Source: Elusimicrobiota bacterium
GTDB taxonomy: Bacteria > Elusimicrobiota > Elusimicrobia > O2-12-FULL-59-9
Direction of reading: 5' to 3'
DNA: 36,310 nt
Assembly (NCBI GenBank): GCA_016206405.1
Contig: JACQRQ010000268.1
Coordinates: 1 to 36,310 of the forward strand
A program made the position numbers and the translations under genes. The notes below the pieces were generated by a model. The model saw nothing but the letters and a program-made list of their open reading frames with translations. It was not told the origin of the DNA and made no database searches. Below, in pieces: positions 2 to 36,183 of the stretch (position 1 is its first letter; every line of letters begins with the position of its first letter).

Positions 2-3000
2 TGCAAGGCCAAGGATATATACGGCAATCAGGCATCCCACCGCTGGGACCCGCGCTGCTGTGGCAAGGGTCTAAGCATGATACGACGGGTTTACGGAACC
101 CACAGGGTCCAGTACCCCTCCGTCAGGAAGGGTTTCAAGGAGTGGGCGGACGCCGGCTATCCTCGCGAGTCCGATGGGCGCATGCCGGAGAAATTCCGCT
201 CCCGCGGCAAGGATCACTTCGTTCGCGTCGGCTGGGACGAGGCTTTCCTGATGGTCGCCAAGACCTTGGACAACGTGGCCAGGGCTTATGACGGCGACCC
301 GGGCAAGGACCTGTTGCTCAAGCAAGGCTACGATCCGGAGATGGTGACGGCCATGAAGGGGTCCGGCGTCCAGACCCTAAAATTCCGCGGCGGCATGCCG
401 CTCTTGGGAGCCACCCGCGTGATGGGGTTTTACCGCTTCGCCAACTCGATAGCTCTGCTCGACGCGAAGATCCGCGGCGTCGGTCCCGACAAGGCGGTCG
501 GCGGGCGCGGCTGGGACAACTACTCCTGGCATACGGATCTGCCGCCGGGCCACACCATGGCCTGCGGGCACCAGACCATCGACTTCGATCTGGCCAATGC
601 CGAGAACGCCAAGCTCATCGTCTGCATCGGAATGAACTGGATTTCGACCAAGATGCCCGACGCCCATTGGCTGACCGAGGCGCGCCTGAAAGGGACGAAG
701 ATCGTCACCGTCGCCGCCGAGTACCAATCAACCTCCAACAAGGCCGATCGCGTCATCATCGTGCGCCCCGGCTCGGACCCGGCCTACGCGCTGGGTCTAG
801 CCAACGTGATATTCCAGGAAAGGTTGTGGGACGACGACTTCGTCAAGGGCCACACGGACCTCCCGCTGCTTGTGCGCGCCGACACGCTCAAGCTCCTGAA
901 GCCGACCGAGATATTCCCCGGTTACCAGAACGCCGAGCTTAAGAACACCCAGCTCCTGGCGGAGGGCGAGAAGGCGCCGCCCGCTGGAGCCCAAGACCGT
1001 CAGGTCGTCAAGAAGAGCCTTCGAGAAGAGTGGGGCGATTTTCTGGCCTGGGATTTCGCCAAAAAAGCGCCGGTCGTGGTCACTCGCGACAACGCCGGCC
1101 AGGCGGGCGATTACGCCCTGGAAGGGACCTTCACGGTCAAGCTTTTGGACGGCCAGGCCGTTCGAGTTCGCCCCGTCTTCGATATGGTCCGCGAGCACGC
1201 CTCGCACTTCACCCCCGAGGTCGTCGCCGAGATCTGCCACACCGATCCGGAGGGCGTGCGGTGGCTGGCTCGCGAGATCGCCAAGAACAAGGAGAAGACC
1301 CTCGTCGCCTACGGCATGGGACCCAACCACTTCTTCAATAACGACCTCAAGGACCGCACCGGCTTTTTGGTGTGCTCGCTGACCCGCAACATCGGCTTTC
1401 ACGGCGGCAACATCGGCTCCTACGCGGGGAACTACCGCGGGGCCTATTTCAACGGCTTGCCGCTCTACATCGGAGAGGACCCATTCCAGCCCGAGCTTGA
1501 CCCGAAAGCCAAGCCCCACTACAAGACCTATTACACTCAGGAATCGGCGCACTACTACAACTACGGAGACCGGCCCCTGCGCGTGGGCAACAAGGTCTTT
1601 ACGGGCAAGAGCCACATGCCGACCCCGACCAAGACGATGTGGTTTGGCAACGGAAACTCGATCTTGGGCAACATCAAGTGGCATCACGATGTGGTCATGA
1701 ACACGCTGCCGAAAATAGAGATGATCGTGGTCAACGATTGGTGGTGGACGGCCTCGTGCGAGTACGCCGACGTGGTCTTTCCGGCGGACTCTTGGGCCGA
1801 GATGAAGTTGCCGGACATGACGGCGGCAGTCACCAACCCCTTCCTACAGATGTTCCCCGTGACGCCGCTCAAGCGGCTGCACGACAGCCGGGGCGACGCC
1901 GAGATTTTGGCGGGGGTGGGCGAAGCGATGGCCAAGGTCACCGGCGACCGGCGCTTCGTGGACTACTGGAAGTTCGTCCACGAGGGGAAAGTCGAGGTAT
2001 ACTTGCAGAGGATCGCCGACAACTCGACCGCGCTCAAGGGTTTCGACATCAAGACTCTCCATGAGAACTGCAAAAAAGGCATCCCCGCCCTCTTGATGAC
2101 CCGGACCTACCCCAAGATCATGGGCTGGGAACAGTCCAATGAAAAGCGGCCCCACTACACAAAGAGCGGGCGCATCGAACTCTACCGTGATGAGCCCGAA
2201 TTCATCGAGTACGGAGAGAATCTGCCCGTTCACCGCGAGCCGGTGGACGGCACGCCCTACGAGCCCAACATCATCGTCTGCGGCGCCAAGGAACTCATCC
2301 GGCCTGCCGGCCCCGAGGTCTATGGGCTCAGCCGCGATGATCTCTCGGTTGAAGTTCGCCAGGTCCGCAACGTGGTGGTTTCCCCTAAGGACGTTGCCAA
2401 GACTTCCCACCCGGGCAAGAAGATCGGCCTCTCCTTGGTCTATATCACCCCCAAATACCGCCATGGAACCCACAGCACCTCGGCTGACACGGACATTCAG
2501 TCCGTCCTGTTCGGGCCCTTTGGGGACCTGCACCGCCGCGACAAGCGCATGCCGTGGGTCGGCGAAGGCTACGTGGACTTAAATCCCGAAGATGCGAAGG
2601 AACTGGGAATACAAGACGGGGATTACGTCTGGATCGACGCGGACCCCAGCGACCGACCTTTTCGCGGCTGGCAGGACAAGCCGGAAGACATGAAAGTCCA
2701 CCGCGCCAAGATGCGCGCCCGCTACTACTGGGGCATCCCGCGCGGCATCGCGCGCTCGTGGTTTCACATGTTCGTAGCTACTTACGGGTCGGTGGAAGGT
2801 CACGAGAATAGACCCGACAAACTGGCGCGCAACCCCCGCACGGGGTACCAGGCCATGTTCCGCTATGGGAGCCACCAATCAGCCACGCGGGCGTGGCTGA
2901 GACCCACCTGCATGACCGAAACCTTGGCGCGCAAGGATTACTTCGGACAGACCATCGGGAAGGGCTTCGCCAACGACATCCACTGTACCGTCGGCGCTCC

Positions 3001-3148
3001 TAAGGAATCCTTCGTCAAGATCACGAAGTCCGAGGATGGGGGCAACGGCATGGCGCTCTGGAAACCGGCGGCCGAGGGCTATCGCCCGGGCTATGAGAGC
3101 GAGGCCATGAAAAAGTACCTCAGGGGCCAGTTCGTGACGAAGGCGTGA
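2..3148 (+). CDS. NXR/NarG-like molybdopterin oxidoreductase, catalytic alpha subunit (5' partial)
   Basis: Catalytic subunit of a type II DMSO-reductase-family enzyme that would carry Mo-bisPGD and one [4Fe-4S] cluster. The frame is open to the window edge, so the track's Met at 77 is internal. The upstream residues include RCCGKG, which fits the last Cys of the N-terminal FS0 cluster motif. The track segment of 1023 aa covers most of a family protein of about 1100-1200 aa. Family landmarks are [24 protein letters not shown], the [17 protein letters not shown] block and FGPFGD near the C-terminus. These resemble my memory of Nitrospira/anammox nitrite oxidoreductase more than classical NarG, so nitrite oxidation, nitrate reduction or another oxyanion are all possible. 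By ungapped spacing to PDAH, the NarG Mo-ligand Asp is Asn here. A Tat signal cannot be seen because the N-terminus lies outside the window. Heads an A-B-D-C operon; the family call is firm, the substrate is not. Confidence 0.9.
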
Positions 3149-3174: not shown

Positions 3175-4293
3175 ATGCCCGAGGTTCCCAACTGGCAGCT
3201 CAAAAGGGATATGGCTTACAAATACGAGGCCAAGCCTCCCAAGAGGCAGATCGCCTACGTCTTCGACACCAATAAGTGCATCGCCTGCCAGACGTGCACG
3301 GTCGCATGCAAAACGACCTGGACCTCCGGAGAGGGGCAGGAGCACATGTTTTGGAACAACGTGGAATCCAAACCCTTCGGCTTCTACCCTCTGGCCTACG
3401 ACGTCAAAATTCTTGAGAAACTGGCGCGACAGACATGGGACGGCGAACAGTACGCCGGCGACACCATTTTCGAGGCGGCGCCGGAGGGCGAGGAGGTGCT
3501 CGGCTACACGCCCGACCCCGACGACTGGTCCCGTCCGAACCTGGGCGAGGACGAGGTCAACGCCCCGGTGGACGCCAACAAGAACATGTCCGTACCGCAC
3601 GATCGCTGGATGTTCTATCTGGCCCGTATCTGTAATCACTGCTCCTACCCCGCCTGCCTGGCCGCTTGTCCCCGCAATGCCATCTATAAGAGACCGGAGG
3701 ACGGCATCGTGCTCATCGATCAGGCGCGATGCCGCGGCTATCAAAAATGCGTAGCGGCCTGTCCCTACAAGAAGCCGATGTTCAACCCGAACACGGGCAG
3801 ATCTGAAAAATGCATCGCCTGCTATCCGCTGATCGAAAAGGGGATCGCCCCGCGTTGCGTGCAGACCTGCATCGGCAAGATCCGCATGACCGGCTTTATC
3901 AACCCGCCGGAGAAGGCGGACGCAAACAACCCCATGGACTATCTGGTGCACGTGCAGAGGGCAGCCCTCCCGCTCATGCCGCAGCTGGGCACGCTGCCCA
4001 ACGTCTATTACATCCCTCCCATCCACGTCGATACGGACTACTTGAGCCAGATGTTCGGTCCCGGCGTGAAGCATGCCGTGGCGACCTATAAGGCGCAGGA
4101 CCCAAAGACCGTCGGGCTGCTGAGTCTCTTCGGGAGCACGGACCACTGGGTCGACCGCTTCACCGTGGAGAATGGGGAAGCCGCGGCCTACCAGAACGGC
4201 AAGGAACTGGTCCGGGTTCCGGTCACGGAGCCCGTGGTTTTCCGGGTGCTCAAGGACGAGAAGCTCGACATTATCCGTCACAGCGTGACATAG
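3175..4293 (+). CDS. NXR/NarH-like iron-sulfur beta subunit
   Basis: Electron-transfer subunit of 372 aa that would wire the Mo site of the alpha subunit to the haem subunit through four Fe-S clusters. All four Cys groups are visible: C35-C38-C41-C45; C153-C156-C161-C165 followed by Pro; C186, C192, C196; and C213-C216 with C228-C232. In the third group the second Cys is replaced (CRGYQKC, Tyr189), which in NarH-type subunits marks a [3Fe-4S] cluster. The first group keeps its fourth Cys, where I recall Asp in Nitrospira NxrB. The N-terminal NWQL and the C-terminal segment with MFGPGV also look NXR-like. The ATG at 3175 follows GAGGAGG at 3161-3167. It lies 26 nt after the alpha stop and 9 nt before the chaperone gene. 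It has no signal peptide, so it would travel with the alpha subunit if the complex is exported by Tat. Confidence 0.92.
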   Translation: MPEVPNWQLKRDMAYKYEAKPPKRQIAYVFDTNKCIACQTCTVACKTTWTSGEGQEHMFWNNVESKPFGFYPLAYDVKILEKLARQTWDGEQYAGDTIFEAAPEGEEVLGYTPDPDDWSRPNLGEDEVNAPVDANKNMSVPHDRWMFYLARICNHCSYPACLAACPRNAIYKRPEDGIVLIDQARCRGYQKCVAACPYKKPMFNPNTGRSEKCIACYPLIEKGIAPRCVQTCIGKIRMTGFINPPEKADANNPMDYLVHVQRAALPLMPQLGTLPNVYYIPPIHVDTDYLSQMFGPGVKHAVATYKAQDPKTVGLLSLFGSTDHWVDRFTVENGEAAAYQNGKELVRVPVTEPVVFRVLKDEKLDIIRHSVT

Positions 4294-4302
4294 GGGGAGG
4301 AG

Positions 4303-4896
4303 ATGAAAGCGACGACGACTTACGCAGCCTGCCCGCCGAAAGCCTTGGGCCTGCGCTTGGCCGCGGCCGGTTTCCAGTATCCGGATGCGGCATGGCGCCG
4401 GCGCTTCGCGGCGCTGCTTGCCGAGTGCCGCAACGCCTCCGCCGTCGCCCTCGAGGAGATCGACGGCTTGGAAACGGAACTTGCGTCGAGCGCCCCCGAC
4501 GGCCTGGAGGCGGAGCATTTCCGTTTGTTCGGCCCCGCTCCGGCGTGCCCGCTCGACTTGGCCCACCACATCAGTCCCAATCCCTTCAACCAAGTTAAGA
4601 AGATCGCCGAGATCGCAGGTTTCTACAAGGCCTTCGGGGTAGAGTCGGAGGGGCGGGCGGACCATCTGCCCGCGGTGCTGGAGTTCATGGCTTATCTCCA
4701 GATCAAGTCCGCGCACGCCGCGACGAAGGGCTGGGACGAGCGGCGCCGGATCGCCGATGCGGCGGCGGCCTCGCTGCGGCGCGATATCGTCTCCAGGGCC
4801 TTGAACGCCTTCTCCGGCAAGCTGAAGAAGGCGGGCGCCGCGAAATTCTATCTGCGATTGGCGGCTTTAAGCCGCGCTCTAGGAGGTGCGTCGTGA
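4303..4896 (+). CDS. TorD/NarJ-family molybdoenzyme assembly chaperone
   Basis: A 197-aa, all-alpha-looking cytoplasmic protein of the TorD/NarJ/DdhD chaperone superfamily, which holds the catalytic subunit while Mo-bisPGD is inserted and before export. Recognisable signatures are EHFRLFGP at about residues 67-74, a CPLD segment, AGFYKAFG, and DHLPAVLEFMAYL; these correspond to the family pattern of RLFGP, GFY.AFG and DHL..ELEFM. The length is typical (180-220 aa). A strong Shine-Dalgarno run (GGGGGAGGAG) precedes the ATG at 4303. The stop overlaps the next start by 4 nt (GTGA), so it is translationally coupled to the haem subunit gene. Its place between beta and gamma matches the ABDC order of ser/clr/ddh operons. 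The client is presumably the alpha subunit encoded two genes upstream. Confidence 0.85.
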   Translation: MKATTTYAACPPKALGLRLAAAGFQYPDAAWRRRFAALLAECRNASAVALEEIDGLETELASSAPDGLEAEHFRLFGPAPACPLDLAHHISPNPFNQVKKIAEIAGFYKAFGVESEGRADHLPAVLEFMAYLQIKSAHAATKGWDERRRIADAAAASLRRDIVSRALNAFSGKLKKAGAAKFYLRLAALSRALGGAS

Positions 4897-5975
4897 AACG
4901 CTGCATTCTTTTCTTCTGTCTGGCGCTCGGCGCCGCCCCGTGCCGGGCGTGGGACCAGAACATCGAGTCCAAGGTTGTTCCGGCGATCTCTTCGGAGCCC
5001 GACGACCCGGCGTGGTCGAAAATCACGTCCGTGAGGGTGGTCCTGGCCCCCCAGAAGCTTCTCGCGCCCCAAGGCGGCGGCGCCGTTTCTTTCATCGATG
5101 TTCAAAGCGCCAGGACGTCAAAGGACGTCTATTTCCGCCTGCGCTGGCCGGATGCGACCAAGGACTCGAAATTCGAGTTGAGCGGACAGTTTGTGGACGC
5201 GGTGGCCGTGCAGTTTCCGCTTTTGCCAGACAGCATGCCTTCGCCCTTCATGGGAGAGAAAGGCAAGCCCGTCAATATTTGGCGCTGGAGCGCTGCCATG
5301 CAGGAGCCGCAGCGCTTCCCCACGGCCTACGCGGACTATCACCGGCCGGACGCGGTGGAAAAAACCATCCTCTATCCCACCCAGGCCGAAGACCTCGCGG
5401 CGGAAGGCTTCGGAACTTTGACCAAGCGAGAGCAGCGGAGCGTCAGCGCCAAAGGCATCTGGGCCGACGGCTTCTGGACCGCGGTGTTTAAGCGCAAATT
5501 GACCGTTCCCGATGGAACCGCATTTAAGAAAGGGACGGTTCTGCCCGTGGCCTTCGCGGTCTGGGACGGTTCGGGCAAGGAGCGCGACGGCGCCAAATCC
5601 TTCTCCGTATGGCACAACCTGCTTCTCGACCGGCCGGCTCCCGCGTTGGCCAAAAATCCCATTGAGCGCGGCCGCCGCGTCTATAACCGCTACGGCTGCG
5701 CGACCTGCCACGGACCCGCAGGCGAGGGCGGCGTTGCCAACCCGAATTCCCAAGTTGATCCCATCCCCCCTCTTAAGCGCGTGGCGGAAGGCTTCACGGA
5801 GGAGGAGATAAAAGCCGTCATTTTAAAGGGCCGAATGCCCGTGGCCAAGGACCCCAACGGCATCAAGCCGCGCCTATGGATGAACTCCTGGAAGGCCCTT
5901 ATGGACGAAGAGGAACTGCATGTGCTGGTGGATTATCTCTTCAGCCTCATGCCCAAAGAGGAAGAAGGCTGGTAG
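4893..5975 (+). CDS. Haem-b gamma subunit (ethylbenzene dehydrogenase type) fused to a cytochrome c domain
   Basis: Periplasmic electron-exit subunit of 360 aa starting at GTG 4893, which overlaps the chaperone stop and follows AGGAGGTG. Residues 1-19 form a Sec-type signal peptide (hydrophobic core, cleavage likely after CRA). Residues about 20-250 match the EBDH/DdhC/NxrC gamma fold; the diagnostic PFMGEKGKPVNIWRW lies at 118-132. A C-terminal class I cytochrome c domain follows, with CATCH at 269-273 and a probable distal ligand Met315 in KGRMP. It should therefore hold one haem b and one haem c, passing electrons between the Fe-S chain and a periplasmic carrier. No membrane segment other than the signal is seen, so unlike NarI it does not itself link to quinone. 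The fused haem c recalls some NxrC proteins from memory. Confidence in both domains is high. Confidence 0.9.
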   Translation: MKRCILFFCLALGAAPCRAWDQNIESKVVPAISSEPDDPAWSKITSVRVVLAPQKLLAPQGGGAVSFIDVQSARTSKDVYFRLRWPDATKDSKFELSGQFVDAVAVQFPLLPDSMPSPFMGEKGKPVNIWRWSAAMQEPQRFPTAYADYHRPDAVEKTILYPTQAEDLAAEGFGTLTKREQRSVSAKGIWADGFWTAVFKRKLTVPDGTAFKKGTVLPVAFAVWDGSGKERDGAKSFSVWHNLLLDRPAPALAKNPIERGRRVYNRYGCATCHGPAGEGGVANPNSQVDPIPPLKRVAEGFTEEEIKAVILKGRMPVAKDPNGIKPRLWMNSWKALMDEEELHVLVDYLFSLMPKEEEGW

Positions 5976-6042: not shown

Positions 6043-6246
6043 ATGCTGCCTAACATAGGAATGGGCGAATTGCTGGTGATATCAGCCATCGCGCTCCTGC
6101 TTTTTGGAGCCAAACGGCTGCCGGAAGTCGCCCGCGGGCTCGGAAAGTCCGTCAACGCCTTCAAACAGGGGCTTAAAGAAATTTCCAGCGGCGCGGAGGA
6201 GACTCCGGCGCCCAAGCCGCTTCCACAGGAAGAGAAGAAAGCGTAA
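6043..6246 (+). CDS. tatA: Sec-independent translocase subunit TatA/E
   Basis: A 67-aa TatA-type protein: a short periplasmic N-terminus, one membrane helix (about residues 8-21), the FGAKRLPEVARGLGKS hinge plus amphipathic helix with its conserved FG-LP motif, then a charged Pro/Glu/Lys tail. It forms the pore-like oligomer for export of folded proteins. GGAGAGG ends about 9 nt before the ATG. Lying 67 nt after the haem subunit gene and 23 nt before moeA suggests a TatA dedicated to, or co-expressed with, the molybdoenzyme, whose catalytic subunit would be folded and loaded before export. No tatB or tatC is in the window. Confidence 0.93.
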   Translation: MLPNIGMGELLVISAIALLLFGAKRLPEVARGLGKSVNAFKQGLKEISSGAEETPAPKPLPQEEKKA

Positions 6247-6269
6247 CGCCGGAATCGGAGGGCGCAAAG

Positions 6270-7373
6270 ATGCCCGGGATGACCAGGCAGGAGCTCGCCG
6301 TGATCGCTCCGGAACAGGCTCTTCAAAAAATATTGGACCACGCTCAGCCGCTCGAGGCTGAACCCGCGGCGCTGGCCCAATGCGCCGGCCGGATTCTGGC
6401 CCAGGATTTGTCGGCCGGGGAAAATCTTCTCCGGCCCGGCGAAAACATCCTCCGCCGCGCGGAAGATGTGCGGCGCAGCGATCTCCTGCTCAAAAAGGGG
6501 AGCCTCCTGCGCCCGTATGAAATCGCGCTTTTGGCCGCCCAGGGCTTTGAAATGGTGCCCGTGATTCGCAGGCCGATCGTGGCCATATTGGCCACGGGCG
6601 ATGAGCTCATCGATGCTTCAAAGCCGCTGTCTCGGGGAAAAATCCGAAACTGCAACGGTCCCGCCATCTCCGGCGCGCTTTCAAGGTGGAATCTCGCCTC
6701 GATGGACCTCGGCATCTCCCGCGATGACCCCGACGAGCTGGAGGCCGCGCTAAAGCCGGCCTTGGCGCGGGCGGATGTCGTCGTGATTTCCGGATGCGCT
6801 TCGGTGGGAGACTTCGACCACGCCAAGAGCGCGCTGCGCCGGCTTGGGGCCGAGGATATTTTCTGGAAGCTGGCCATCAAGCCGGGCGAACCCTTTTTAT
6901 TCGCCGTGCATCGCTCCAAACCCGGCGGCCCCCTGCGCAGCCCCAGGCGCAGTGCCCTGGGACCCAGAAGCCCCAGAGGGGCGTGGGGAGCTTCGGGGAC
7001 CATGAATCGCCGGAGGCGCGGCGGCCGCCCGTTGCCCATCTTTGGGCTTCCGGGAAATCCCGTCGCCGCTCTCATTTGCCTGGAGGAGTTCATTCGGCCG
7101 GCGCTGGAAAAAATGCAGGGCTACGCGCCGAAACACCCAAGTTATCACCTGCGGGCTAGAGCCGTCAACGGCTATGACAAGCCCTCCGACCGACGGGAAT
7201 ATCTTTTCTGCCGGGCTAGCTTGGGCGATGGGGACTTTAAACTTCACATCCTCCGGCAGCACGGCGCCGCCATGATGGGCGCCGCCTGCTCGGCCAACGC
7301 TCTTGCCGCCGCTCCTCCGGGAGGCGGCCGCATCCAACCGGGGGATTGGCTGCCGTTCCGGTGGCTGAAATAG
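6270..7373 (+). CDS. moeA: MoeA-like molybdopterin molybdotransferase lacking domain II
   Basis: A 367-aa homologue of MoeA, which inserts molybdate into adenylylated molybdopterin. Domain I is present to about residue 47 (GRILAQDLS), then the chain jumps straight to GENILRRAEDV. The usual 70-80 residues of domain II, including the DNSAMDGYA motif, are missing. The MPT-binding domain III is intact: VAILATGDEL, GKIRNCN, SVGDFDHAK, KPGEPFLF and FGLPGNPVAALICLEEF. One Gly of the usual SGG.SVGD is Cys. About 30 extra Arg/Pro/Gly-rich residues interrupt the segment between KPGEPFLF and FGLPGNP. Domain IV follows (QHGAAMMGAAC, ANAL). The ATG at 6270 is preceded by GGAGGG, and the frame is uninterrupted. 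It could be a degenerate or specialised MoeA, or need a second full-length copy elsewhere. Confidence 0.85.
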   Translation: MPGMTRQELAVIAPEQALQKILDHAQPLEAEPAALAQCAGRILAQDLSAGENLLRPGENILRRAEDVRRSDLLLKKGSLLRPYEIALLAAQGFEMVPVIRRPIVAILATGDELIDASKPLSRGKIRNCNGPAISGALSRWNLASMDLGISRDDPDELEAALKPALARADVVVISGCASVGDFDHAKSALRRLGAEDIFWKLAIKPGEPFLFAVHRSKPGGPLRSPRRSALGPRSPRGAWGASGTMNRRRRGGRPLPIFGLPGNPVAALICLEEFIRPALEKMQGYAPKHPSYHLRARAVNGYDKPSDRREYLFCRASLGDGDFKLHILRQHGAAMMGAACSANALAAAPPGGGRIQPGDWLPFRWLK

Positions 7374-7376
7374 GCC

Positions 7377-8000
7377 ATGCTGCGCAATGTGACGGGCGTG
7401 ATATTGGCGGGCGGACTCAGCCGCCGCTTTGGCTCCAACAAAGCCTTGGCGCCTTGGGGTGGTAAAAAGCTCGTGGAGCATATGGCGGCCAAGCTCTCCC
7501 CGCTTTTTCCGGAAGTTATGGTTTTGGCAAAAAACCGCGGCGACTATGGGTTTCTACGCGGCGTCAATGTGCGCGTGGAAGCGGATTTGCTGCCTGAAAA
7601 CCACCCTCTGGGAGGAATCTATTCCGCCTTGTCGCTTGCCGGAACGAAATCCGTCTTTGTCTGCGGCTGCGACATGCCTCTGCTCGACCCGGAGCTGGTC
7701 CGTCGTTTGTGGAAAGCCGGCCGGCGCCATGACGCCGCGGTCCCCGTGTGGAATTTAAGGCTTGAGCCGCTTTGCGGAATCTACTCGAGAAACTGCGCGC
7801 CGGCCATAGACGCCATGCTGCGGGAAGGCTGCTTCAAGATTCAAGAGCTTTTCAACCGGGTGCGCACCCGGTTTTTTCTGCATGAGGAAGTGCAGGCGGT
7901 CGATCCCGCCGGACTCTCTTTCATGGATGTCGACACCCGTGAAGATTTCAAGCGCGTTGGAAAAGCGCGGCGCGAGGCGGCCGCGATTTATGCCCGTTGA
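7377..8000 (+). CDS. mobA: Molybdenum cofactor guanylyltransferase MobA
   Basis: Transfers GMP from GTP to Mo-molybdopterin to make the bis-MGD cofactor that DMSO-reductase-family enzymes such as the upstream alpha subunit require. The 207 aa show the full nucleotidyltransferase signature: LAGGLSRRFGSNKAL (GTP-binding loop, residues about 10-24), HPLGGIYSAL, VCGCDMPLLDPE (metal-binding Asp), and EPLCGIYSR. Length is typical. The ATG lies 3 nt after the moeA stop, and the 3' end overlaps moaA by 11 nt, so the three cofactor genes are probably translated as one unit. No mobB-like GTPase domain is fused. Confidence 0.93.
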   Translation: MLRNVTGVILAGGLSRRFGSNKALAPWGGKKLVEHMAAKLSPLFPEVMVLAKNRGDYGFLRGVNVRVEADLLPENHPLGGIYSALSLAGTKSVFVCGCDMPLLDPELVRRLWKAGRRHDAAVPVWNLRLEPLCGIYSRNCAPAIDAMLREGCFKIQELFNRVRTRFFLHEEVQAVDPAGLSFMDVDTREDFKRVGKARREAAAIYAR

Positions 8001-8979
8001 TTCTTTCAACCGGCGCATCGACTACCTGCGCCTCTCGGCGACGGATCGCTGCAACCTGCGCTGCCTCTATTGCCTTCCGGAGTTCTACGCGCGTTTTGCG
8101 CCGGCCGAAGAGCTTTTAAGCCACTTGGAAATTGAGGAATTGGCGGCCTGCTTCGCGGAGCTGGGCGTTTCCAAAATCCGCGTCACCGGAGGCGAACCCC
8201 TGGTGCGCCCGGCCATCGCAGACTTGATCGGCCGTCTGGCGAAGCTGCGCGGCGTTTCGGAAGTCTCCCTGAGCACCAACGGGATTCTGCTCGCTCCGCT
8301 GGCCCGGGAGTTGGCGCAGGCGGGCCTAAAAAGAGTCAACATCAGCTTGGACACTCTGCGGCCGGAGCGCTTCAGGCAAATCACGCGGTTTGGGAAGCTG
8401 GCGGCGGTGCTGGAGGGCGTGGAGGCCGCCCTCAAGGCGGGCCTCAACCCCGTGAAGCTCAATGTCGTCGTGGCGCGCGGGATGAACGCCGATGAGATCG
8501 GCGAATTCGTCGAGTTGACGCGGTCGCTGCCGCTGCACGTGCGATTCATCGAGCTCATGCCTATGGGAGAAACGGGCTTTTTTTCCGAAGAAAGGCGAGT
8601 GCCCCTCCAAGAGATGATGGAGCGGGCAGCCCCGCTCAGGGCCCTGGGCCCGGACGAGCGCCCCGTGGGCCATGGGCCCGCGCGCTACTACCGCAGGCCG
8701 GGAGCGCAGGGGACCGTGGGCTTTATCAGCCCCTTGAGCTGCGGCTTCTGCTCTGCCTGCAACCGCGTGCGCCTGACGGCCAGGGGAGTTCTGGTTCCCT
8801 GCCTGGACGCCTCTGAAGGCACGGACCTGCGCCAAGCGCTGCGCGATAAAGCCGGGCGCGCCCATCTTCAGAAGCTGATCTTAAGCGTCATTGAAAATAA
8901 ACCCCGGCGGCACTCGATGCTTGAAAGAGCCGCCGGCCTCTCTCCGAACCCGAGGTTCATGTGCCAAATCGGGGGTTGA
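7990..8979 (+). CDS. moaA: GTP 3',8-cyclase MoaA
   Basis: Radical SAM enzyme for the first step of molybdopterin synthesis, converting GTP to 3',8-cyclo-dihydro-GTP (with MoaC, not in this window). The track begins at 7882 inside mobA. I choose ATG 7990, which gives a normal 329-aa MoaA starting just ahead of the conserved RRIDYLRLSATDRC. The N-terminal [4Fe-4S] motif is C21-C25-C28 (CNLRCLYC), followed by the SAM-binding VTGGEPL. The C-terminal substrate cluster motif is CGFCSACNRVRLT with a later Cys in VPCLD. The protein ends in MCQIGG, preserving the GlyGly tail essential in MoaA. It overlaps mobA by 11 nt. Confidence 0.95.
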   Translation: MPVDSFNRRIDYLRLSATDRCNLRCLYCLPEFYARFAPAEELLSHLEIEELAACFAELGVSKIRVTGGEPLVRPAIADLIGRLAKLRGVSEVSLSTNGILLAPLARELAQAGLKRVNISLDTLRPERFRQITRFGKLAAVLEGVEAALKAGLNPVKLNVVVARGMNADEIGEFVELTRSLPLHVRFIELMPMGETGFFSEERRVPLQEMMERAAPLRALGPDERPVGHGPARYYRRPGAQGTVGFISPLSCGFCSACNRVRLTARGVLVPCLDASEGTDLRQALRDKAGRAHLQKLILSVIENKPRRHSMLERAAGLSPNPRFMCQIGG

Positions 8980-10679: not shown

Positions 10680-10719
10680 TTCTTCGTCGCACCCTGAGCG
10701 CTTTCCCGCTCGACGACTC

Positions 10720-10778
10720 GATCACTTGCCCCTCTGCCACTCTACCACTATACCACTCTATCACTGTACCACTACCAT
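10720..10778 (+). repeat. CACTCTAC octamer array A
   Basis: Imperfect tandem 8-bp units (CACTCTAC, with variants such as CACTATAC and CACTCTAT) between two convergent genes. A degenerate head with CTCGATCACTTG precedes the regular units. Same family and polarity as arrays at 11641 and 18408. Confidence 0.85.
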
Positions 10779-10834
10779 AACGGCTCATACCGCCGGCTTA
10801 GCAGCGTTCCATCAAGGGGGTAGAAGTCGGATTC

Positions 10835-11607: not shown

Positions 11608-11640
11608 ATAAAAAAACCGCTTCCGAACTGAGTGTATTTT

Positions 11641-11691
11641 CACTCTACCACTTTACCACTCTACCACTTTATCACTTCTTCACCGCCCCAC
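11641..11691 (+). repeat. CACTCTAC octamer array B
   Basis: About six consecutive 8-bp units (CACTCTAC, CACTTTAC, CACTCTAC, CACTTTAT, then degenerate). The thiolase stop codon (TAG on the minus strand, 11691-11693) lies at the array edge, so the array directly abuts the gene's 3' end. Confidence 0.88.
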
Positions 11692-12845
11692 TATGATGTT
11701 CTTTCAACCGCCACCGCCACCGCCTCGCCTCCGCCCAAGCAGATGGCCGCCACGCCGCGGCGAAGATTTTCCTGTTTTAAGGCATGCAGCAGCGTCACTA
11801 AGATACGGGCTCCGCTGGCTCCGATGGGGTGGCCCAAAGCGACGGCCCCGCCGCGGACGTTGACCTTGTTGGCGGGAATGCCGGCCAGCTTCATGACCGC
11901 CAAAGCCACGACGCTGAAGGCCTCGTTGATCTCAAAGAGGTCCACTTCCGCAACCTTCCAGCCCAGCTTTGAAAGCAGTTTTTCGATGGCGCCGGCGGGC
12001 GCGGTGGTAAACCACTCCGGCTCCTGACTGTGCGTGGCCCAGCCGCGGACGGCGGCCATCGGTTCAAGACCGAGCGCTTGAGCCCGGGAAGCGGAAGCCA
12101 GCACCAGCGCCGCGGCTCCATCGTCGATCTTGGATGAATTAGCCGCCGTCACGCTGCCGCCGGGCTTGAAAGCGGGCTTAAGTTTGGAGATTTTTTCAAA
12201 TTTGACCCGCTGGGGCTCCTCGTCCTCCAAGAGGCCGTCCACGACCGCGATCTCCTCGGCGAAAAGTCCCTTGCGCTGCGACTCCTGAGCTCTCTGGTAG
12301 CTCAGTATCGCGAAAGCGTCCTGCTCCTCCCGCGAGATCGCGTGCTTTTCCGCGCAAAGCTCTCCGCAGATGCCCATCGACATGTCCTTATACGGGTCCC
12401 ACAACCCATCTTTAATCACTGAGTCGATCAATTGGCTGTGTCCCAGGCGGTAACCGGAGCGCGCCTTTTCCAAAAGGTAGGGCGCCTTGCTCATGGATTC
12501 CATGCCGCCCGCCACGACGATGGAGGAGTCGCCCAGCCGGATGGACTGAGCCCCCAACATCACCGCCTTCAGGCCCGAGCCGCAGACTTTGTTGACCGTC
12601 GTCGCGCCCGTTTGAACGGGAATGCCGGCGCCGATGGACGCTTGGCGCGCGGGGGCTTGGCCGATGCCGGCGGAAAGAACGTTCCCAAAAATCACCTCAT
12701 CCACATTTTTGGGCGCGAGGCGGGCCGCTTCCAGAGCCCCGACAATGGCTTTGGCGCCGAGTTGAGGCGCCGTGTAGCTGGCCAGCGCCCCGTTGAGAGT
12801 CCCGATGGGCGTCCGGCGACCGCTTAAAATGACGGTTTGTTCCAT
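11691..12845 (-). CDS. Acetyl-CoA acetyltransferase (thiolase)
   Basis: A 384-aa class II thiolase, which condenses or cleaves acyl-CoA units (acetoacetyl-CoA to 2 acetyl-CoA and the reverse). The nucleophile is Cys88 in NKVCGSG. The other catalytic motifs are NEAFS, VALGHPIGASGAR (His) and CLGGGEA (second Cys). Length matches biosynthetic/acetoacetyl-CoA thiolases. A strong GGGGAGGT lies 5 nt before the ATG at 12845. It stands alone, without HMG-CoA or beta-oxidation partners nearby, so its direction in metabolism is open. Its stop codon coincides with the edge of repeat array B. Confidence 0.95.
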   Translation of the reverse strand: MEQTVILSGRRTPIGTLNGALASYTAPQLGAKAIVGALEAARLAPKNVDEVIFGNVLSAGIGQAPARQASIGAGIPVQTGATTVNKVCGSGLKAVMLGAQSIRLGDSSIVVAGGMESMSKAPYLLEKARSGYRLGHSQLIDSVIKDGLWDPYKDMSMGICGELCAEKHAISREEQDAFAILSYQRAQESQRKGLFAEEIAVVDGLLEDEEPQRVKFEKISKLKPAFKPGGSVTAANSSKIDDGAAALVLASASRAQALGLEPMAAVRGWATHSQEPEWFTTAPAGAIEKLLSKLGWKVAEVDLFEINEAFSVVALAVMKLAGIPANKVNVRGGAVALGHPIGASGARILVTLLHALKQENLRRGVAAICLGGGEAVAVAVERTS

Positions 12846-16966: not shown

Positions 16967-18558
16967 AGATATTGATCGCTCAACCCTATTTCAGGGTCCT
17001 GGACCCGGCCGAGTGGAAAAACCAGATGCCTTATCCGGCTCTGAGCGCGCTTTACGCGGCGACCGTCCTGCGCGGCTTGGGGCACGATATCCATTTTTTC
17101 GACGGCATGCTGGCTTCACGCCCAAAAAACCTGGATGACGAACTGCGGGATCTTCGGCCCGACCTTTTTTTGCTCTTGGACGACGATTTCAACTATCTGA
17201 CGAAGATGTGCCTGTCCAACATGCGCCGCGCCGCGCTCAAAGCTCTGGAAACAGCCCAGGAACTGGGCATTGCTGCCTTTATTCACTCCTCCGACGCCGC
17301 CGATCACCCGCGGCCGTATCTGGAACGAGGGGCATGGGCGGTGATTTTGCAGGAAGCGGAGAGCGCCCTTCCCGACGTCATCACCGCCATCGAAAAGGGA
17401 AATTTCAAGCAAACCCGCGAAAAAATACCGGGACTGCTTTTGGGGGGCGGCGAACGGAGTCCAAAAAGGGAGGCGCTCAAGGATTTGGATCTTCTGCCGG
17501 AGCCGGATTATGATTTCGTCGACCTCGCCGCCTACAGGAAAATTTGGATTAAAAACCACGGATATTTTTCGCTCAACATCTCCACGGCCCGGGGCTGTCC
17601 CTTCGGCTGCAATTGGTGCGCCAAACCTCTTTATGGCCAAGCCTACCACAGCCATTCCCCCGCCAGAGTGGCCGGACGCATGCGTCGCTTAAGCCGGCGC
17701 TACAACGCCGACCATTTCTGGATCACCGACGATATCTTCGGTTTGAAGCCCGGTTGGCTCAGGGAGTTCGCCCGCGAATGCGCCTCTCAAGACGCGCGCG
17801 TTCCATATAAATGCCTGTCCCGGGCCGATTTGCTTCTCCGGGACGGCACGGTGGAGCTTCTAAAGCGTTCCGGATGCAGAACCATCTGGCTCGGAGCCGA
17901 ATCCGGCAGCCAGAAAGTGTTGAACGCCATGGAAAAAGGCGTTTCGGTGGAGCAGATCTACGAGGCGGCGCGCCTGGTGCGCCGCGAAAACATGGAGATC
18001 GCTTTTTTCCTGCAGATCGGGTACCCGGAAGAAACATGGGACGATATTTCGCTGACGCGGAAAATGGTCCGGGACTTGACGCCGGACGGCCTGGGCATTT
18101 CCGTCTCCTATCCGCTTCCCGGCACTAAATTTTTTGAGCGGGTATCCAGCCGGCAGCTCTCCAAAACCCGCTGGACCCACTCCAAGGATTTGGATCTTTT
18201 GTTTGCCGGAACCTACGGACGGCAATTTTACCGGTTTCTGCAGCGCTTTATTCACGCCGAGCACCGTATTTTCAGGATCTGCAGAAACAAACAATGGCGG
18301 CAATGGCATCGCCTGGCGGCCTCCATCTTGAGATGGACGTTCTACGGCGCGCTGTTGGCGATCAAGTCTTGCGTGGAGCGTCCCGCCCGCCCAGCGCCCC
18401 GCGTCCGATCGAACACTCGATCACTCGACCACTTGAGCACTGATCACTCTACCGCTCGCCCACTTTACCACTCTACCACTCTGCCGCCGTATCACTCTAT
18501 CACTCTACCACTTTACCACTCTACCACTGGTGGACAAGTTAAGGTGGACTCAATATGA
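16963..18558 (+). CDS. B12-binding-type radical SAM protein 1, with repeat-encoded C-terminus
   Basis: A 531-aa protein of the cobalamin-binding radical SAM architecture. It has an N-terminal Rossmann-like domain (about 1-165, starting MKILIAQPYF), then a radical SAM barrel with C212-C216-C219 (GCPFGCNWC), the ITDDIF strand and LGAESGSQKVL. Such enzymes often methylate unactivated carbons or rearrange ring systems. The classic DxHxxG cobalamin motif is not evident. The last 50 or so residues are encoded by octamer array D and read as HSTTLPLY-type repeats; this tail is probably not part of the enzyme fold. The frame stays open to a stop overlapping the next ATG (ATGA, 18555-18558). First of three related paralogues in the operon. 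Confidence 0.88.
   Translation: MKILIAQPYFRVLDPAEWKNQMPYPALSALYAATVLRGLGHDIHFFDGMLASRPKNLDDELRDLRPDLFLLLDDDFNYLTKMCLSNMRRAALKALETAQELGIAAFIHSSDAADHPRPYLERGAWAVILQEAESALPDVITAIEKGNFKQTREKIPGLLLGGGERSPKREALKDLDLLPEPDYDFVDLAAYRKIWIKNHGYFSLNISTARGCPFGCNWCAKPLYGQAYHSHSPARVAGRMRRLSRRYNADHFWITDDIFGLKPGWLREFARECASQDARVPYKCLSRADLLLRDGTVELLKRSGCRTIWLGAESGSQKVLNAMEKGVSVEQIYEAARLVRRENMEIAFFLQIGYPEETWDDISLTRKMVRDLTPDGLGISVSYPLPGTKFFERVSSRQLSKTRWTHSKDLDLLFAGTYGRQFYRFLQRFIHAEHRIFRICRNKQWRQWHRLAASILRWTFYGALLAIKSCVERPARPAPRVRSNTRSLDHLSTDHSTARPLYHSTTLPPYHSITLPLYHSTTGGQVKVDSI
18408..18532 (+). repeat. CACTCTAC octamer array D (inside a coding frame)
   Basis: The longest array here: a degenerate head (CACTCGAT, CACTCGAC, CACTTGAG), then regular CACTCTAC/CACTTTAC units, ending in CCACTGGTGGAC. 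It lies within the 3' end of the radical SAM gene. Its last 20 bp or so recur in reverse orientation at 36131. Confidence 0.92.
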
Positions 18559-27519: not shown

Positions 27520-27529
27520 GATATTGAAA

Positions 27530-27590
27530 GTGGTAGAGTGGTAGAGTGGTAGAGTGATCGGGTGATCAAGTAATCGAGTGAACGATGGGT
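27530..27590 (-). repeat. Octamer array E (reverse orientation)
   Basis: GTGGTAGAGTG units on the plus strand, that is CACTCTAC on the minus strand, with a degenerate CGAGTGA/GATCAAG part at the higher-coordinate end. This is the same head-then-body polarity as arrays A and D, read on the opposite strand. Lies in the sucC-sucD spacer. Confidence 0.9.
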
Positions 27591-36130: not shown

Positions 36131-36183
36131 GGTCCACCAGTGGTAGAGTGGTCCAGTGGTAAAGTGATCAAAGCGATCACTCA
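36131..36183 (-). repeat. Octamer array G between tuf and rpmG
   Basis: On the minus strand, after a GAGTGATC head that includes the tuf stop codon, come CACTTTAC- and CACTCTAC-type units ending in CCACTGGTGGAC. That terminal segment matches the end of array D. It separates two genes that are normally close together. Confidence 0.85.

Follow-up and report, generated by a model that had tools for sequence, protein, structure and literature searches.

The window, by which we mean the whole 36,310-nucleotide stretch of Elusimicrobiota DNA that was analysed, carries the molybdenum-enzyme operon that the earlier note had recognized: NarG-, NarH- and NarJ-like genes, tatA, mobA and moaA surround a moeA gene (Table 1). 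The MoaA ORF opens at 7882 although its product begins near 7999, MPVDSFNRRIDYLRL. Gene order is shared with two other genomes of the phylum (G012 and G045), in which the narG-, narH- and narJ-like genes, the haem subunit and tatA are followed by moaC, mogA, a full-length moeA, mobA and moaA, with moaE also present beside moaC and mogA in G045; a related order is found in G059, G014 and G008. In the window tatA lies directly before moeA (6246-6270) and the moaC, moaE and mogA genes that intervene in relatives are absent. Given its position upstream of mobA and moaA and near narGHJ-type genes and tatA, the window gene is the orthologue of the full-length MoeA found in the Nar-like molybdoenzyme operon of other Elusimicrobia. 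TatC was not found in this genome (G000, an 81% complete assembly), though TatA is encoded in the operon.

Table 1 Coordinates of genes and sequence features in the window, and of further repeat copies at other loci
Feature	Position	Strand	Evidence
Molybdopterin oxidoreductase (NarG-like) catalytic subunit	77..3148	+	Pfam
4Fe-4S electron-transfer subunit (NarH-like)	3175..4293	+	Pfam
NarJ-like chaperone (Nitrate_red_del)	4303..4896	+	Pfam
Ethylbenzene-dehydrogenase-like haem subunit fused to cytochrome c	4893..5975	+	Pfam
TatA	6043..6246	+	Pfam
moeA ORF without domain II (367 aa)	6270..7373	+	ORF reading, Pfam, alignment
Junction of the 84-85-residue deletion (residues L53/L54)	6426..6431	+	Alignment
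In-frame dispersed repeat, ~108 bp (residues about 218-254)	6920..7032	+	Similarity searches, alignment
MobA-like NTP transferase, intact	7377..8000	+	Pfam and invariant-column comparison
MoaA, intact	7999..8979	+	Pfam and invariant-column comparison
Further repeat copies	L043:2293-2402; L066:1501-1579; L072:1501-1572; L084:1501-1594; L071:1501-1593		

The moeA reading frame contains no stop, in agreement with the intact frame described earlier. It can start at ATG 6270 (GGAGGG 7 nt upstream) or at GTG 6300 (AGGAG 6 nt upstream), the latter fitting the start of its relatives better. MoCF_biosynth (PF00994, domain III) and MoeA_C (PF03454, domain IV) score above their Pfam cut-offs, and MoeA_N is matched only at the last 39 of its 160 profile positions (122-160); the protein does not contain a complete MoeA_N (domains I and II), and the DNSAMDGYA and MTGAP motifs are missing. 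Across the junction, placed at bases 6428/6429 give or take a few codons, the chain reads ...GRILAQDLSAGENL then LRPGENILRRAED... without a stop codon. Aligned with phylum MoeAs, the gap is a single clean block of 84-85 residues relative to orthologs, beginning PPFDNSAMDG; the same gap measures 77-85 residues against most other MoeAs of the phylum and 101 against the second MoeA of the sister species (G001). In the comparison with the solved E. coli MoeA, window residues 13-49 correspond to 9-46 and 54-212 to 130-287. Both sides of the junction align to the flanks of domain II and no residues need to be added, so that in the assembled sequence the missing block is domain II, removed almost exactly. 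Pfam, the phylum alignment and the E. coli alignment thus all bear out the earlier description of a MoeA lacking domain II and DNSAMDGYA; the 70-80 residues given there for the loss were slightly too few.

Several sources for the gap were considered and set aside. Domain II is not encoded as a separate gene, as the only other MoeA_N match in the genome is a fragment of the second moeA described below. Deletion by way of the dispersed repeat or any other repeat was rejected because a genome-wide search revealed no second good copy of the junction sequence, which is therefore unique. The junction can form a 9-bp stem, but this is nothing out of the ordinary, as 13 of 200 shuffled sequences fold equally well, and no RNA family was found in the region.

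The deletion is absent from the related MoeAs aligned here. A MoeA match at E <= 1e-25 was obtained in 51 of the 295 genomes of the phylum, and an MDG or VDG motif is present in every fetched phylum frame that could be read at full length, a reading that leaves out two short frames ending at contig ends and two loci with no readable frame. Domain II is also present at all 80 loci fetched from other genomes, a few of which have a variant motif, so that no MoeA without domain II was encountered among these loci or the full-length-readable phylum MoeAs. The named relatives closest to the window gene are Elusimicrobia, the basis on which the window was assigned to that phylum. Orthologs in the same operon retain the domain. 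The earlier note had proposed that full-length relatives at this locus would count against it; they are indeed full length, but this indicates a loss restricted to one lineage rather than that the deletion is false. Judged on these comparisons, the loss of domain II is specific to one lineage, known from one genome. Three matches that seemed to span the junction (G229, G286 and G277) lie in frames of 407-439 aa, the G277 locus L188 has the MDG motif, and these matches are likely chance alignments of the end of domain II; short MoeA frames in G002 and G290 are both cut by contig ends. A literature search for a MoeA without domain II returned no match with the terms used, which is weak evidence.

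These data also bear on whether the gene is in reality full length, with ~255 bp skipped by a wrong join in the contig, in the assembly or through population mixture. The source is a metagenome assembly (299 contigs, 81% complete), the genome has many repeats, and all relatives are full length. Nevertheless we regard such an artefact as unlikely, since the junction is exact, in frame and at a domain boundary without a repeat that could cause collapse, relaxed constraint is indicated independently by positions away from the deletion, and the neighbouring upstream genes are missing too. The mobA and moaA genes of the window are not unusual, which argues against poor sequence, and repeats shared with the rest of the assembly support the contig belonging to this genome.

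The remainder of the protein is expected to keep the fold of domains I, III and IV, which are predicted intact in an AlphaFold model; structure prediction was among the checks suggested in the earlier note. Mean pLDDT is 86.7, with domains I, III and IV high and low confidence at the junction and in the repeat insert. The best full-chain PDB fits are to gephyrin, Cnx1E and MoeA, with the highest target coverage for two 322-residue chains (2nqm_A and 9gw9_B, TM 0.86-0.87), in which, from the chain length, domain II is presumably unresolved. The MoeA active site is formed by domains III and IV of one subunit together with subdomain II of its partner (PMC9458074). The equivalents of E. coli D142, E188, D228 and K279 are retained in the window protein and D59 and T100 are deleted. 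A K279E change was considered and rejected, as the PDB alignment puts the changed lysine at K282. R61L and S333A fall at the positions of R137 and S371 in E. coli, for each of which structural mutants have been published or deposited, and three motifs are altered (SGGVS to SGCAS, KPGKP to KPGEP and RPQGS to RQHGA). The window protein resembles the molybdenum insertase MoeA, the gephyrin E-domain and Cnx1E in the sequence and predicted fold of domains I, III and IV, in most domain III acidic residues and in its Moco operon context, yet differs from them in having no domain II, in several altered conserved positions and in an added repeat-encoded loop. Because the active site is shared between domains III/IV of one chain and domain II of the other, two window proteins paired with each other would supply neither copy of domain II; such a homodimer would have no complete site and should not insert molybdenum.

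The earlier note reasoned that loss of activity would be costly in such an operon and recommended a search for a second moeA. This search succeeded, and the cost argument is not supported in its light. A second moeA is split over contig ends, its N-terminal half ending contig C64 (MLDPRQALKK...HNSAMDGYA...MTGA) and its C-terminal half starting C33. A single full-length gene of the sister species matches both halves, with 81% and 92% DNA identity, the downstream neighbour is common to C33 and the sister genome, and in a tree the joined halves group with the sister protein at full support with the window MoeA placed elsewhere. Judged against the sister gene, ~230 bp between the halves are unassembled, and integrity of this central part is inferred from the sister species. 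Of the remaining genes, moaC lies on C92 and mogA, moaD and moaE on C26, two contigs that overlap exactly by 119 bp, and moaA and mobA are in the window. Provided that the second moeA is intact in its unsequenced central part, the Moco pathway is complete without the window MoeA; Moco synthesis being covered, loss of activity here need not be costly. In the sister species, the full-length MoeA on G001:C105 (L019/L056) has ~16 extra domain II residues (PPAVQVPRALRTAGAS) beside a duplicated AGASP.

The presence of another MoeA, which the earlier note had invoked as a possible partner, raises the idea that the short protein pairs with it and that the domain II of the second MoeA completes the site, perhaps tuning the Moco supply of the operon. 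Such pairing is compatible with an active site that spans the dimer (PMC9458074), with the presence in the genome of a second MoeA that has domain II, with the retained key acidic residues of domain III and with a frame preserved through two indels. We nonetheless think it quite improbable, as the SGCAS, KPGEP and RQHGA changes fall at otherwise invariant positions of domains III and IV, the two MoeAs are only about 49% identical, and nothing points to an interaction between them; of the earlier suggestion, the other MoeA is present and the joint action has a low probability. The stricter form, in which the domain-II-less protein works only as partner of the full-length MoeA and the heterodimer's one complete site serves just the Nar-like enzyme of the operon, is very improbable.

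Several lines of evidence suggest that constraint on the window gene has relaxed. Its product departs at 11 of 53 columns that are invariant in 14 other MoeAs, compared with 0-2 departures in close orthologs and 5-6 in more distant ones. In a further comparison it departs at 19 of 123 invariant columns versus 5 of 125 for the neighbouring MoaA (Fisher p about 0.002), and mobA at 2 of 36; these counts are drawn from few, related sequences and the Fisher values are guides only. The end branch of the window MoeA (0.58) is similar to those of several intact orthologs (0.54-0.59), so the excess changes lie in conserved sites, and as it is no longer than theirs the decay cannot be old. The reading frame has survived both deletion and insertion and the codon-position GC bias persists. 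The gene thus reads as recently relaxed rather than as an old pseudogene, and the substitutions at invariant positions, together with the inserted repeat, disfavour the specialized variant proposed in the earlier note.

A related possibility is that the protein has been repurposed as a non-catalytic MoeA-fold protein, a role that has been put forward for Glp of actinobacteria. At least two moeA copies are present in bacteria that have Glp, and the Glp active site is altered (PMC11733289). In both cases an ordinary MoeA is accompanied by a further copy whose active site is degraded, and the MoeA fold is retained in our model. In contrast to the window protein, Glp keeps all four domains (chains of ~395 residues in PDB 8bve/8bvf) and is linked to cell division, whereas the window MoeA still has mobA and moaA directly downstream in a Mo operon and is so far known from a single genome. 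Nothing hints at another function, and the deletion is not common to relatives, which argues against a conserved new form. We consider repurposing quite improbable.

The explanation we favour, and consider probable, is that the MoeA encoded by the window gene is redundant, no longer has Mo-insertase activity and is under relaxed constraint, either decaying or with a residual role. An in-frame deletion would have taken domain II from the operon's MoeA in this lineage, and the second, ordinary MoeA would insert molybdenum in its place. The window copy may be on its way to loss or may retain a minor role such as binding; it could persist because the loss is recent, because translation of the downstream mobA and moaA benefits, or because of that minor role. 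As a decaying duplicate the gene is ordinary. Yet nature has here deleted a domain from an enzyme in which two subunits share the active site, and this poses the questions of whether domains I, III and IV are stable alone and whether a partner can supply domain II.

The repeat within domain III fits this relaxed constraint. It sits between strands just before the FGLPGNP motif, as a low-confidence loop in the model, and is absent from the MoeA of orthologs. A repeat search gave 28 matches here and 26 in the sister species, and a small number of other genomes of the class have weaker ones; a 39-bp half, which also occurs alone, accounts for many of the matches. One match, on G001:C5, was rejected as a remnant of the window moeA because only the repeat matches. 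Five of the six reading frames through the window copy are open, and other copies lie in frame, in varied frames and orientations, in a DAP-decarboxylase-like gene and, in relatives, in Lon, type III glutamine synthetase, BatD and a TMEM260-TPR gene. Since some of these genes are likely essential, the insert alone need not inactivate MoeA. Rickettsia palindromic elements likewise enter protein genes in frame (PMC10969869), and the two families resemble each other in being dispersed repeats of ~100-150 bp that occupy unrelated genes in frame, some of these genes being metabolic or essential (PMC10969869). They differ in host, here Elusimicrobia, and in structure, as the window copy shows no palindromic structure, folding no better than shuffles (z = -0.46). 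A repeat family that inserts in frame into genes for essential proteins, in a phylum of which few members have been cultured, deserves separate study and may be a more interesting feature than the moeA deletion. Elsewhere in the window, an 8-nt unit (CACTCTAC-like) forms arrays in both orientations in five stretches between genes (10710-10789, 11629-11692, 18386-18536, 27521-27583 and 36131-36169).
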